Virus record (IMG/VR): IMGVR_UViG_3300009481_000039
Coordinates: 1 to 36,808 of that record
Length of the DNA stretch: 36,808 nt
Source: a virus
Reading direction: 5' to 3' (one strand)
The first letter of the stretch is position 1; every line of letters starts with the position of its first letter. Position numbers and translations under genes: made by a program. This document shows, piece after piece, positions 2,997 through 36,807 of this stretch. The notes under the pieces were generated by a model. That model was not told the origin of the DNA, searched no databases, and saw only the letters and a list, made by a program, of their open reading frames with translations.

Positions 2997-3006
2997 TACA
3001 GAGAAC

Positions 3007-3393
3007 ATGAGAAAACCAAGAAACGATCTTGAGCATATCGAACAAGTCAAGTTGTTCAACTGGGCTAGGCAAAACGAGTCAATGTATTTACACTTGAGTC
3101 TTTTGTTTGCTATCCCAAACGGTGGGCGTAGACATATCGGGACAGCTAGAAAGTTAAAGGCTGAAGGTGTTAAGGCTGGCGTACCTGATTGTTTCCTAGC
3201 TGTACCAAAAGACGAAAAGCATGGCTTGTTTATCGAGATGAAGAATGGCAAAAACAAACCAACATCTAACCAGAATTGGTGGTTGACCAGCATGAAGGTG
3301 GAAGGGTACGAGACTGCGGTGTGCTACAGCTTTGAAGAGGCACGAGACAAGATTATAGAATACTTGAAACTAGAGGTGAAAGATGAACGATGA
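3007..3393 (+). CDS. VRR-NUC family nuclease
   Basis: This 128-residue protein matches the VRR-NUC (virus-type replication-repair nuclease) fold of the PD-(D/E)XK superfamily. Visible motifs in order: E12 in the first helix, IPNGG at 36-40, AGVPDCFL with D61, IEMKNGK with E77 and K79 as the second acidic residue and the lysine, then SNQ around Q89. Standalone phage VRR-NUC proteins of this length are common and are thought to cut branched or flapped DNA, for example recombination intermediates. Its place after the replication genes fits processing of ERF-made intermediates before packaging. It overlaps the next gene by 11 bases. Confidence 0.88.
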   Translation: MRKPRNDLEHIEQVKLFNWARQNESMYLHLSLLFAIPNGGRRHIGTARKLKAEGVKAGVPDCFLAVPKDEKHGLFIEMKNGKNKPTSNQNWWLTSMKVEGYETAVCYSFEEARDKIIEYLKLEVKDER

Positions 3394-5514: not shown

Positions 5515-5550
5515 CTCATCTCTCCTTTTGTTAATCATCATCATGGGGAT

Positions 5551-5578
5551 ATTATAGCATCATAATGATATATGTCAA
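5551..5578 (-). promoter_or_regulatory. Consensus sigma70 promoter for the leftward operon
   Basis: On the minus strand TTGACA (5578-5573) is followed by 16 bases and then TATAAT (5556-5551). The -10 box is also extended (TGC-TATAAT). Both hexamers match the consensus exactly. Transcription would begin about 5544-5540, a short distance before the first start cassette at 5514. Such a promoter needs no phage factor, so this operon can be expressed at once after entry. Confidence 0.9.
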
Positions 5579-33239: not shown

Positions 33240-35708
33240 ATGGTAAGCGAAAAGAAAATGGAACTGCTTAGAGGATTAAAGGCAAATGGTGCTTTCTCTG
33301 AGTCTATGGAAAAAAATTTAAGCCTAGAACAAATAGAGGAACTGAATGCCATCCCAACAGTTCCTAGAGGAACTGCCAGAACCGTACCGCAAGTGGATGA
33401 CCCTTCAGAACTTGAGTTGTTTGGAGAAGGCTTAATAGACTCATATCCAGAATTGGGGCGTGGTGCATTGCAACTTGGAACGCATTTGGCTGACACTTTA
33501 CTGCCAGATTCTTTCAGCCCAAGCCAACAGACAATTAGAGATGCAGATAGAGCGGCTGGTTATTTTAGAAACCCCAACGAAAATCCATACTTCAAGGCTG
33601 GGGAACAACCAGACAAGAAGGTGTTTCAGCTTAAATATCCATTTAGTGATCGTGAATTATATTCTGGGTTTAATCCTTATGAGGTTGGGAAGGTGGGTGG
33701 ACAAATGGGAATCCCTTTGGGGAAGTTCATGCCAAAAGGGGGGCTTGGAACTTTTAAGGATAGGTTGAAGTTTGGGGCTGGTGTTGGTTTGGGTTATGGT
33801 AGTTTGTTGCCCAACGAAGGTGGAGAAGGTTACTGGAAAGACAAAGGAACGCAGATGGGGATTGGTGCTGTAGGTAGCCCGATTGTAGGGGAATTTGTCT
33901 TTAGATTGCTACAAGCTGGCGTTGGCACAGCACAAGGCATTAAGAGCCTTGGTGAGAAAACGATAAACTTTGTTAAGACTTTAGGCAAGCACATTGAGAA
34001 GGGGGGGCAATTACCAGATTCGTTAAGCCAGTTACCTAGAGAGGCTGTGCGTGGGGTTTCTATTGAAATCCAAGAAAGGGTAGAACGAATTTTAAACGAA
34101 GCAAGCCAACGAGGTGGAGTCTTAACCCCAGAACAAGCGTTAAAGATTGCTAACTACGAAAGTCTTGGCTATGAGGCTGGGACAAGGGGGGCTAGTAAGT
34201 ATCCGCTTGAAGGAATGACCCCAGCCCAGATAAGCCAAGACCCAGCTATAGCGGCAGAGGAGTTAATGGTCGAGGGGAATCCAGCCTATAAGCAGAAGAT
34301 GCGAGATCAAGATAGATATATGACTGGTAGTGTTGATAAAATTTCAGAAAAATTACAAACTCCAACGGGGCAAAAACCAGCATATACTGGGGAAGCTGGT
34401 TATCCAGAAATAACAAGCACAGGGGAAGAGGTTGCTGGTGTCGTTGGTGCAATGAGTAAAAGGTTGGGGGCTAAAACCGGCAGACTTTATTCACAAGCGA
34501 CAAAAGAATATGGCAAGGCAAGGGTGAAGCCTGTTAATTTTATGAAGGCAGTGGAAAGGTTTAAAAATGAGGCAACCGCATCAGATGTCAGTAAGACGGT
34601 TCAAGGGTATACAGGACAAATTAGAGATGCGATGATACGCCAAAGACCCAAACCATATAAAGGGCAAAAGGGAACGATGAAAGCAGACAAGCAAAAACTT
34701 CCATCCAGCCTAGATGATGCGTGGAGTGCTTCAACAGCCAAACCCCAGCCCACAACACAACCAAAGGCAGACTCTTTAAACGTGGCTTCATTTGAAGGAA
34801 TAAGAAAAACTTTAACTCGTCATGTTGACCAACTGAAAAGGGCTGGGAACAAAGAAGGGGCTACGGTTTTAAGGAAATTAAGAAAAGCTATGGACAAGGA
34901 TGTTGAGTTAGCTGTAGGACATGATGTTTATAAGGCTGGGCGTGGTGTTCACGAGGCTGGGATGAAAGGACATCTCAACATTCCTACTGTGAGCAAAGTA
35001 TTAAAAGGAGAGTATGACCTTAATTTCGCAAAAGTAGTTGATGATGTTGAAAAACTCCCATACGAGCAATTATTAAAGCTAAAAACGGGTATGTATAGCG
35101 AGGGGGCTAGAGGGAAAGAAGCGTGGAGAAAACTAGCGGCTCAAATTTGGCATAAGATGAAAGAAGAAGCAATAAAGGGATACGAAGGACACGGGCCACA
35201 AGAAAGGATGGTGGGTGTGCCAACCTTAGAAAATAAAATTAAAAAGTTTAGTAAAACTGCAAGTGGATTGGGTGCAAACACACCTAAAGGCAAACTTCTT
35301 TTTGGTGAAGAGATCGCCAACGAGATTACCAATATCTTGAAGGCGAGTCGTGATCTTCAGATCATGGGCAAACGAGAAGTTAGAACGGGATGGGGGGGCA
35401 TTGTCAATCTTCTGGACTGGGGCAGTAAGTTACTGGGTAAAGTGCCTAGCCTACAGACTAGAGGGGCATCAACTATTTTAAGCGAAGCAACCCAAGCAGT
35501 AAAACGAGAAGGGCAAGACAAGATAGCTGGACAAGTTCTGAAGAAGACAATGAAAGACCCTAGAGAATTTAGACCAAAGGGAGTACCAAAAGGGAAGGTT
35601 GACAGTATTATGAATTTGTATAAACCAAACCCCTTGTTTGCCCCAGAAGCGATGGGGGTTCAAGAAATAGACAAAAGAAAAAAACGTGGCATGCTGGGGG
35701 GAAAATAA
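33240..35708 (+). CDS. Largest internal virion (ejection) protein candidate D
   Basis: This 822-residue protein is the largest in the genome. It has a Glu-rich start, an early hydrophobic and Gly-rich region (about 140-245, including KFGAGVGLGYGSLLPNEGG), a long helical middle (about 260-640), and basic segments (AIKGYEGHGPQERMVGVPTL). No lytic transglycosylase or peptidase motif was seen. It ends the late operon, just before the regulatory region at 35736. Confidence 0.62.
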   Translation: MVSEKKMELLRGLKANGAFSESMEKNLSLEQIEELNAIPTVPRGTARTVPQVDDPSELELFGEGLIDSYPELGRGALQLGTHLADTLLPDSFSPSQQTIRDADRAAGYFRNPNENPYFKAGEQPDKKVFQLKYPFSDRELYSGFNPYEVGKVGGQMGIPLGKFMPKGGLGTFKDRLKFGAGVGLGYGSLLPNEGGEGYWKDKGTQMGIGAVGSPIVGEFVFRLLQAGVGTAQGIKSLGEKTINFVKTLGKHIEKGGQLPDSLSQLPREAVRGVSIEIQERVERILNEASQRGGVLTPEQALKIANYESLGYEAGTRGASKYPLEGMTPAQISQDPAIAAEELMVEGNPAYKQKMRDQDRYMTGSVDKISEKLQTPTGQKPAYTGEAGYPEITSTGEEVAGVVGAMSKRLGAKTGRLYSQATKEYGKARVKPVNFMKAVERFKNEATASDVSKTVQGYTGQIRDAMIRQRPKPYKGQKGTMKADKQKLPSSLDDAWSASTAKPQPTTQPKADSLNVASFEGIRKTLTRHVDQLKRAGNKEGATVLRKLRKAMDKDVELAVGHDVYKAGRGVHEAGMKGHLNIPTVSKVLKGEYDLNFAKVVDDVEKLPYEQLLKLKTGMYSEGARGKEAWRKLAAQIWHKMKEEAIKGYEGHGPQERMVGVPTLENKIKKFSKTASGLGANTPKGKLLFGEEIANEITNILKASRDLQIMGKREVRTGWGGIVNLLDWGSKLLGKVPSLQTRGASTILSEATQAVKREGQDKIAGQVLKKTMKDPREFRPKGVPKGKVDSIMNLYKPNPLFAPEAMGVQEIDKRKKRGMLGGK

Positions 35709-35735: not shown

Positions 35736-35763
35736 TTGACATATAATTAAAAAATGGTAATCT
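35736..35763 (+). promoter_or_regulatory. Early rightward promoter
   Basis: TTGACA (35736-35741), 16 bases, TAATCT (35758-35763). The -35 box is perfect and continues into ATATA, as in the leftward promoter at 5578. The -10 matches four of six. It lies 28 bases after the last late gene and drives a leader of about 130 bases before the HU-like gene. Confidence 0.72.
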
Positions 35764-35770
35764 AGGCTCA

Positions 35771-35892
35771 GTTGCACTGGGTAAGATTCACTTAATATTC
35801 ATAACGGAGTTCTCATCTTTCCTCTCCGTTTATGGCAACCATCAGGGCTTTCTCACTTACCCAGTGTCGCTTTGGTGGTTGCCTTTTTTTTT
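35771..35892 (+). ncRNA. Structured early leader RNA with pseudoknotted terminator
   Basis: Three pairings are exact on reading. A: CACTGGGTAAG (35775-35785) with CTTACCCAGTG (35856-35866), 11 bp. B: AACGGAG (35803-35809) with CTCCGTT (35824-35830), 7 bp. C: GGCAACCATC (35834-35843) with GGTGGTTGCC (35874-35883), 10 bp with one G-T pair, then T9 (35884-35892). The 3' strand of A lies in the loop of C, so A and C form a pseudoknot. This is the design of a riboswitch-like or protein-controlled attenuator. Partner and ligand are unknown. It may alternatively be a discrete small RNA. Confidence 0.75.
35834..35892 (+). terminator. Intrinsic terminator before the HU-like gene
   Basis: A 10-bp stem (35834-35843 with 35874-35883), a 30-base loop and nine T. 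It can stop late transcripts from 33240-35708, and would also stop early transcripts from 35736 unless prevented. The loop is unusually long because it holds the strand that pairs with the 5' end of the leader. Confidence 0.85.
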
Positions 35893-35901
35893 GAGGAAAT
35901 T

Positions 35902-36180
35902 ATGTCTAGAATTCACAAGGAAGAATTTACCAGAATTTTGGCAAAGAAGATGGGGTTGTCGCACAAAGAGTCTATTCGTTTTTTTGATAATTTTGTTGAG
36001 GCAATAAGAGAGTGCTTATCTGCTGAGAAGAATGTGACAATCAGAAATTTTGGGAAGTTCGAGGTTAGAAAATATGGTGAAAGAAAATGCAGAAATCCAA
36101 AAACTGGAGAGGTTTTTGTTTCACCGCCAAAAAAGAAAATTCATTTCAAGGCAGGGAAATTTTTAAAGGAGAAGGTTTGA
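35902..36180 (+). CDS. HU/IHF-family DNA-bending protein
   Basis: This 92-residue protein has the whole HU fold: a helical start (RIHKEEFTRILAKKMGLSHK, then SIRFFDNFVEAIRECL), the NVTIRNFGKFEVRKYGERK strand region, an arm with RNPKTGE and PKKKIHFKAGKFLKEKV. I start at ATG 35902, with GAGG five bases upstream. Upstream in-frame codons fall in the terminator. It may bend origin or packaging DNA, or alter the host chromosome. It is the first protein made from the early promoter. Confidence 0.92.
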   Translation: MSRIHKEEFTRILAKKMGLSHKESIRFFDNFVEAIRECLSAEKNVTIRNFGKFEVRKYGERKCRNPKTGEVFVSPPKKKIHFKAGKFLKEKV

Positions 36181-36678: not shown

Positions 36679-36683
36679 ACTGT

Positions 36684-36755
36684 GGGGGATGCTCAAGGCT
36701 GGACTCTCCAAACCAGCCGCTGAAGGTCTTAATCGGTGGTCTTCAGCCATCCCCC
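36684..36755 (+). ncRNA. Compact three-way-junction RNA element before the ERF gene
   Basis: An outer stem GGGGGATG (36684-36691) with CATCCCCC (36748-36755), 8 bp, encloses two hairpins: GGCTGG/CCAGCC (36697-36702, 36713-36718; 10-base loop) and GCTGAAG/CTTCAGC (36719-36725, 36741-36747; may extend by three pairs). Only five bases (CTCAA) join the outer stem to the first hairpin; the other two junctions have no unpaired base. Because the contig closes on itself, bases 1-31 repeat the 3' half. The element ends 58 bases before the ERF start in circular order. It may be a leader control element, a processing site or a terminator (only TTT follows). No known riboswitch core was recognised. Confidence 0.75.
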
Positions 36756-36807
36756 TTTAACCTAAAAAAAGGATAAATAAAATGGGATCAAAAAAAGAAA
36801 AAGAAAA
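36725..36807. repeat. Right copy of 83-bp terminal direct repeat
   Basis: Identical to bases 1-83; the final base of the window (36808) departs from the left copy. It carries the start of the ERF gene again, so the partial frame from 36782 onward is the same gene and must not be counted twice. Confidence 0.9.

Follow-up and report, generated by a model that had tools for sequence, protein, structure and literature searches.

A putative attenuator at the head of a phage early operon, with a predicted helix joining the transcript 5′ end to a terminator loop

The leader RNA in front of the early genes of an uncultured phage carries an intrinsic terminator, and the loop of this terminator can pair with the predicted 5′ end of the same transcript: CACTGGGTAAG is the exact reverse complement of CTTACCCAGTG (helix S1, Table 1). 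The preliminary description of this DNA had reported this 11-bp match in the loop of a T9 terminator before the HU gene, together with a third hairpin between the two strands, and both are confirmed here. In at least one relative the architecture is kept while the sequence has changed. The structured RNA element is very probably real, and attenuation of some kind is probable. The specific proposal, to which we give about even confidence, is that of a cis-acting transcription attenuator heading the early operon, in which the 5′ end of the RNA would capture the terminator loop and so form an antiterminator helix. An attenuator or antitermination device had been suggested earlier; the position of the element, its recurrence in L216 (and, in looser form, in L078) and stepwise folding support that suggestion well.

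The DNA analyzed (the window), a 36,808-base virus record, very probably represents a circular phage genome, given an end overlap of 83 bases (1-83 = 36725-36807). Its terminase, portal protein and major head protein are related to those of known phage families. There is no known close isolate, and in the phage collection the closest terminase matches at 52%. On its upstream side the leader borders the last late gene (822 aa, stop at 35708); downstream of it lies the gene for an HU-family protein, which opens the early cluster and is followed by two small genes, ERF and the replication genes.

Table 1. Features of the early leader and the first early gene (positions in the window).
Feature	Position	Strand	Basis or remark
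Putative early promoter: TTGACA (35736-35741), 16-nt spacer ending TGG, TAATCT (35758-35763)	35736..35763	+	sequence
P1, alternative hairpin, core 35766-35772/35776-35782	35756..35793	+	RNA folding, -12.3 kcal/mol
S1 5′ strand CACUGGGUAAG, putatively ~+6 to +16 of transcript	35775..35785	+	exact complement of 35856-35866
P2 hairpin AACGGAG/CUCCGUU (35803-35809/35824-35830), 14-nt loop, between S1 strands	35803..35830	+	RNA folding, -8.0 kcal/mol
Intrinsic terminator: 15-bp stem 35834-35848/35869-35883, 20-nt loop 35849-35868, T9 35884-35892	35834..35892	+	RNA folding, -27.6 kcal/mol
S1 3′ strand CUUACCCAGUG in terminator loop, linkers 7 nt + 2 nt	35856..35866	+	loop positions 8-18 of 20
Shine-Dalgarno GAGGAAA of HU	35893..35899	+	sequence; directly 3′ of T-run; HU ATG 35902
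HU-family DNA-binding protein, first early gene	35902..36180	+	PHROG 379 DNA binding protein, E = 2.7e-23

The T-run of the terminator ends one base before the HU Shine-Dalgarno sequence begins, which leaves no space for a promoter in the gap. HU and the genes that follow are therefore reached only past the terminator, unless a promoter is hidden inside the terminator itself. A strong stem with a T-run thus stands between the putative early promoter and the first gene, as expected of an attenuator. Two further features of this region were noted. The end of the P2 loop (TTTCCTC, 35818-35824) complements the HU Shine-Dalgarno sequence over 7 bp, a possible extra contact, and a frame of 20 codons (MATIRAFSLTQCRFGGCLFF, 35832-35892) crosses the terminator and stops just before that sequence. 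Leader-peptide attenuation was considered and rejected: the frame has no obvious Shine-Dalgarno sequence at the usual spacing, and no counterpart was seen in L216. Sequestration of the ribosome binding site was likewise dropped as a shared function; the T-run adjoins it in the window and in L078, but in L216 it lies ~190 nt away.

S1 is the sole perfect 11-bp inverted repeat with a spacing below 130 nt in the whole 36.8-kb window. Its duplex energy is -17.5 kcal/mol (-21.1 kcal/mol including the flanking pair), and the fold of 35736-35901 has a z-score of -5.0. Chance pairing had been called unlikely, and at the level of the leader this stands: dinucleotide shuffles gave any 11-bp repeat in 1 of 3000 cases, shuffles of the upstream part only reached the S1 duplex energy in 4 of 5000, and shuffles of the loop against the first 21 nt of the transcript gave the pairing in 11 of 200000. 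At the level of the genome it does not, as 36.8 kb of DNA should contain roughly one 11-bp repeat by chance alone; the weight therefore rests on the position of S1 and on its recurrence in L216. Terminator-like hairpins were scanned at all loci, and in a set of 80, from the window and the first relatives, the perfect complement between loop and upstream sequence measures 11 here and at most 7 elsewhere. That an ordinary terminator acquired this complementarity by accident is scarcely credible; the genome-wide expectation speaks for such an accident, but the shuffle results and the identical geometry in L216 speak against it.

Transcription probably starts near 35770, judging from an early promoter whose -10 element is weak (3/6 matches). 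This promoter resembles a leftward promoter with 12/12 matches (TTGACATATA...ATGC-TATAAT at 5578, minus strand) and also the early promoter of L216, TTGACT-17-TAATAT. The leftward promoter (5530-5578, minus strand) is a perfect sigma-70-type promoter, TTGACA-16-TATAAT, for a small leftward operon whose genes have a ribosome-site repeat, AGGAGAGATGAG, in common (repeat family D2). An alternative -10 element, TATAAT at 35742-35747, would place the start near 35754. The choice of start matters for P1, the hairpin previously described around the 5′ strand of S1 (35766-35782). It can form when transcription begins upstream, and it sequesters the 5′ strand only in transcripts begun upstream of ~35756, either from the TATAAT at 35742 or in the late operon; with a start at ~35770 it is cut off, and the 5′ strand would be free at about +6 to +16. 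A counterpart of P1 was not found in L216, where the neighboring upstream genes point away.

The order of folding was examined by folding the growing transcript stepwise in a nested model, with S1 and the terminator stem treated as mutually exclusive. As long as the 3′ arm of the terminator is still hidden, S1 is a normal nested helix. From the exposure of 35866 up to 35880, S1 has a probability of at least 0.99 and the stem one of at most 0.01; the stem takes over at 35882. Blocking the 5′ strand of S1 lets the stem form as early as 35874 (P 0.95). The delay that S1 imposes on the terminator hairpin is ~8 nt in the window and 5 nt in L216 (switch moved from 2954 to 2959), and the two states are closely matched (-32.1 vs. 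-35.5 kcal/mol). In this calculation the alternative to the stem dominates before the 3′ arm is exposed, again as expected of an attenuator. S1 and the stem have no base in common, and for both to be present at once the RNA must adopt a pseudoknot that threads the loop. The earlier proposal that the two long helices either form such a pseudoknot or compete in time fits this topology, and temporal competition is what the nested model yields.

RNA polymerase hides ~12 nt of the transcript (PMC6478431) and needs only a few bases to clear the T-run, so that a delay caused by S1 should increase readthrough. In the proposed mechanism, RNA polymerase would initiate at ~35770 and the first 5′ bases would remain unpaired until the terminator loop emerges, at which point bases +6 to +16 would pair with it over 11 bp before the 3′ arm is out. 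S1 would then compete topologically, the stem being able to close only around the threaded loop, as a pseudoknot. With closure held back while the polymerase crosses the short T-run, a defined share of polymerases would reach HU, ERF and the replication genes; with S1 late or absent, transcription would terminate and a compact RNA of ~120 nt would be released. Control may be exerted through capture of the 5′ strand by a protein, by a released leader RNA acting in trans or by a start further upstream, and constitutive partial readthrough and start-site choice are candidate alternatives. With an upstream start and P1 formed, late transcripts would stop and early ones would pass. The direction assumed here, in which S1 favors readthrough, follows the nested model and has in our estimate an even chance of being correct.

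Eleven base pairs make up about one turn of an RNA helix. A free 5′ end at +6 would ease threading, and a helix of one turn would put the ends of the loop strand on the same side; if the pseudoknot is easy to form in this way, S1 may not hinder the stem and may even help it. According to this, the main alternative, which is possible but rather doubtful, joining the 5′ end to an over-long loop would pre-organize the hairpin and make termination efficient, and the released RNA would be capped at its 5′ end. Only an occupied 5′ strand would allow readthrough, and the products would be a stable small leader RNA and a regulated mRNA. The two helices share no bases, linkers of 7 + 2 nt and 8 + 3 nt permit a pseudoknot, the 5′ end is free to thread, and a loop of 20-22 nt is unusually long for a terminator. 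There is also a prophage precedent in IsrK, a leader terminator that yields a small RNA and a readthrough mRNA (PMC4825925). On the other hand, the nested model has S1 delaying the stem, and a linker of 2-3 nt on one side strains the simultaneous helices.

The effect of the start site bears on another reading, that of a terminator serving only the late operon. The 822-aa gene lies on the same strand and ends 126 nt before the stem, which would halt its transcripts, and P1 would make them terminate sooner than those from the early promoter. In the folding calculation, P1 weakens S1 in transcripts started at 35754, and the stem takes over at 35878, against 35882 with the early-promoter start. 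However, early transcripts must pass the terminator as well, there being no promoter space between the T-run and HU, and in L216 the device is still present although the upstream genes are oppositely oriented. An exclusively late function is accordingly quite improbable.

Relatives were reached by alignment of ERF (L078-L081) and of the replication protein (L216). L216 is an uncultured temperate relative with the same replication protein (71% over the N-terminal part) and an integrase-like gene; a CI-like gene runs leftward (2773-2399), divergent from the leader, and HU lies to the right (3167). The device is located between the early promoter and HU, with its elements in the same order as in the window: the S1 5′ strand GCTACTTGGGA (= GCUACUUGGGA) at 2833-2843 (+6/+7), a counterpart of P2 (CCTGT/ACAGG), and a terminator with the stem CTCACCAGCC/GGCTGGTGGG, a 22-nt loop containing TCCCAAGTAGC, and T8. 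The loop is divided 8/11/3 in L216 vs. 7/11/2 in the window. In the ungapped register all 11 pairs of S1 are changed and all 11 are still paired, a pairing that arose in 36 of 5000 upstream shuffles and in 4 of 200000 loop shuffles against the first 22 nt. Covariation of the 11-bp helix, proposed earlier as a check, is thus found in one clear homologue, and the competing structure shows the compensatory conservation typical of attenuators. The L216 leader contains, after the terminator and before HU (3000-3080), a second possible pseudoknot, CCATGCGGG/CCCGCATGG with GTTAGG/CCTAAC.

L078 has a 16-bp stem, a T6 run adjoining a GAGGA Shine-Dalgarno sequence and a 13-bp helix between loop and leader with one bulge (7 of 5000 upstream shuffles). 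This version is looser, with the 5′ strand at around +45 and the leader crossed by a reading frame of 62 aa. In L079 and L080, which are close to L078 in other respects, the first early gene follows a short leader that has no terminator. When T-run terminators in the DNA examined were restricted to those with long loops and a stem score of at least 24, the strongest three came from the window, L078 and L216. In a relaxed scan of 1.95 Mb, L125/L129 and L204 rank close to these three; L125/L129 were rejected as further examples, as they contain a different kind of pseudoknot. It is an H-type pseudoknot in a 5′ untranslated region downstream of ERF (L129:3775-3974 and L125:5625-5824, + strand), just before a GGGAG ribosome site, and both of its helices (e.g., AGTTAGCCGGG/CCCGGCTGACT with GACCCCATCTCC/GGAGATGGGGTC) are kept via compensatory changes between the phages.

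Another structured RNA occurs in the window between a small gene and ERF (36683-36762, z = -4.4) and consists of a closing stem, GGGGGATG/CATCCCCC, and two inner hairpins. Larger versions are found at L080:298-422, L079:1241-1356 and L078:3873-3983, where GTCCAA, GGTCAAG and CGATTCGGCACAG are strictly conserved and the stems are altered yet pairing. The copies in the window and in L078 have no Rfam match.

Other searches for the leader device were negative within their scope. A nucleotide search of 50,697 phage records with the region and with the leader alone gave no match, the exact two-strand pattern was not found in viral contigs, and protein searches that took HU, ERF or the 822-aa protein as a single query returned none; searches with HU among isolates recovered distant HU proteins only. 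Terminase relatives (L002-L052) include some at 100% and at 65-67%, and their contigs stop short of the leader. Whole distant relatives (C72C1, three Manatee Spring phages and Vibrio phiV208) have no such terminator.

The comparison with L216 also bears on the view that the two 11-mers are oppositely oriented DNA sites for a repressor or a looping protein. Every RNA helix is a DNA inverted repeat too, and the sites flank the start region. Nevertheless, the genome has no additional copies of the S1 11-mer (10 matches when up to 2 mismatches are allowed, vs. 8.8 expected), a result on which the idea of a DNA regulon was dropped. Moreover, the sequence is wholly changed in L216 while complementarity and loop position are kept, and one copy falls exactly within the terminator loop in both phages. 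A DNA-level function of this kind is very improbable.

An antisense type of feedback is an unlikely explanation. The loop of a released leader RNA would capture the 5′ strand of new transcripts in trans, or the reverse, and termination would rise with the level of leader RNA, as in the attenuators of plasmid pT181 or in phage antisense RNAs of the P1 c4 type. Antisense pairs usually consist of such parts, a 5′ tail and a hairpin loop, and L216 is temperate, with its CI-like gene divergent from the leader. The pairing, however, lies within one RNA, so that cis should win, there is no second target copy in the genome, and no Rfam family matches. With Rfam 15, no family reached the gathering score in the window (the best sub-threshold hit being the SR6 antitoxin, 28.1 bits vs. 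55), and L216 and L078 gave no match.

The cis-acting attenuator proposed here would be of a known general kind, differing by the capture of the loop, an arrangement of terminator loop and transcript 5′ end for which no description was found in the open-access literature (subscription papers lay outside the scope). The nearest systems in logic are the terminator-embedded HMP-PP riboswitch and then the attenuators of the pT181 type. In the HMP-PP (thiS) riboswitch a 5′ strand competes with completion of the terminator in a narrow transcription window, possibly with a pseudoknot (PMC6478431). Both leaders are short and dominated by an intrinsic terminator, with an important loop region and a 5′ strand in the competing helix; in the riboswitch, however, a competing P1 stem breaks up the stem of the terminator close to the U-run and the outcome depends on a ligand, whereas S1 uses loop bases only and no ligand is known. 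In pT181-type attenuators a 5′ leader element determines formation of the downstream intrinsic terminator (PMC4878617), as is proposed here. Their antiterminator base-pairs to the stem's 5′ arm and is blocked by antisense RNA, while in the present leader the loop would be captured and no antisense RNA is known.

A comparison by logic with the put RNAs of phage HK022 had also been drawn, and it is not supported. The put element, ~70 nt with two stem-loops, binds the zinc-binding domain of the polymerase and suppresses terminators at least 10 kb away (PMC9378689). The common ground is a phage RNA after an early promoter with an effect, here predicted, on the termination of early transcripts. But the element described here belongs to the very terminator it would affect rather than acting on distant ones, and the two-stem-loop element is missing before that terminator: the first 64 nt from 35770 hold only P2 and weakly paired strands. 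A blastn search of the leader against the 50,697 phage records (E up to 1), among which HK022 is not necessarily included, gave no match to put-carrying DNA. IsrK of Gifsy-1 offers another parallel, a prophage leader whose output is a small RNA when the terminator acts and the downstream mRNA when it is read through (PMC4825925). Two outputs would likewise be possible from the present leader; IsrK acts on translation via an RNA interaction in trans, and the available part of that source does not describe a helix between loop and 5′ end. The c4 antisense RNA of P1/P7 is also a structured phage RNA with complementary stretches in loops, but it acts in trans on the ant mRNA near its ribosome binding site (PMC12197685), unlike the pairing inside a single leader seen here.

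Whereas a textbook antiterminator ties up one of the two stem arms, the competing helix proposed here occupies the loop only and involves the very 5′ end of the RNA. We tentatively suggest, at somewhat below even confidence, that such leaders form a distinct class of phage early-operon switch, in which an antiterminator helix of one turn would join the transcript 5′ end to the terminator loop, share no base of the stem and work by topology and timing. The switch would be usable only by early-promoter transcripts with a free 5′ end, and it would be kept across divergent uncultured phages while its sequence changes freely. Should the element function as folded, it would show cleanly whether termination is helped or blocked when a pseudoknot threads a terminator loop. 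The leader would then set early-gene output without a protein, through timing and start site, and its sequence would be free to change, so that related phages need not cross-react.
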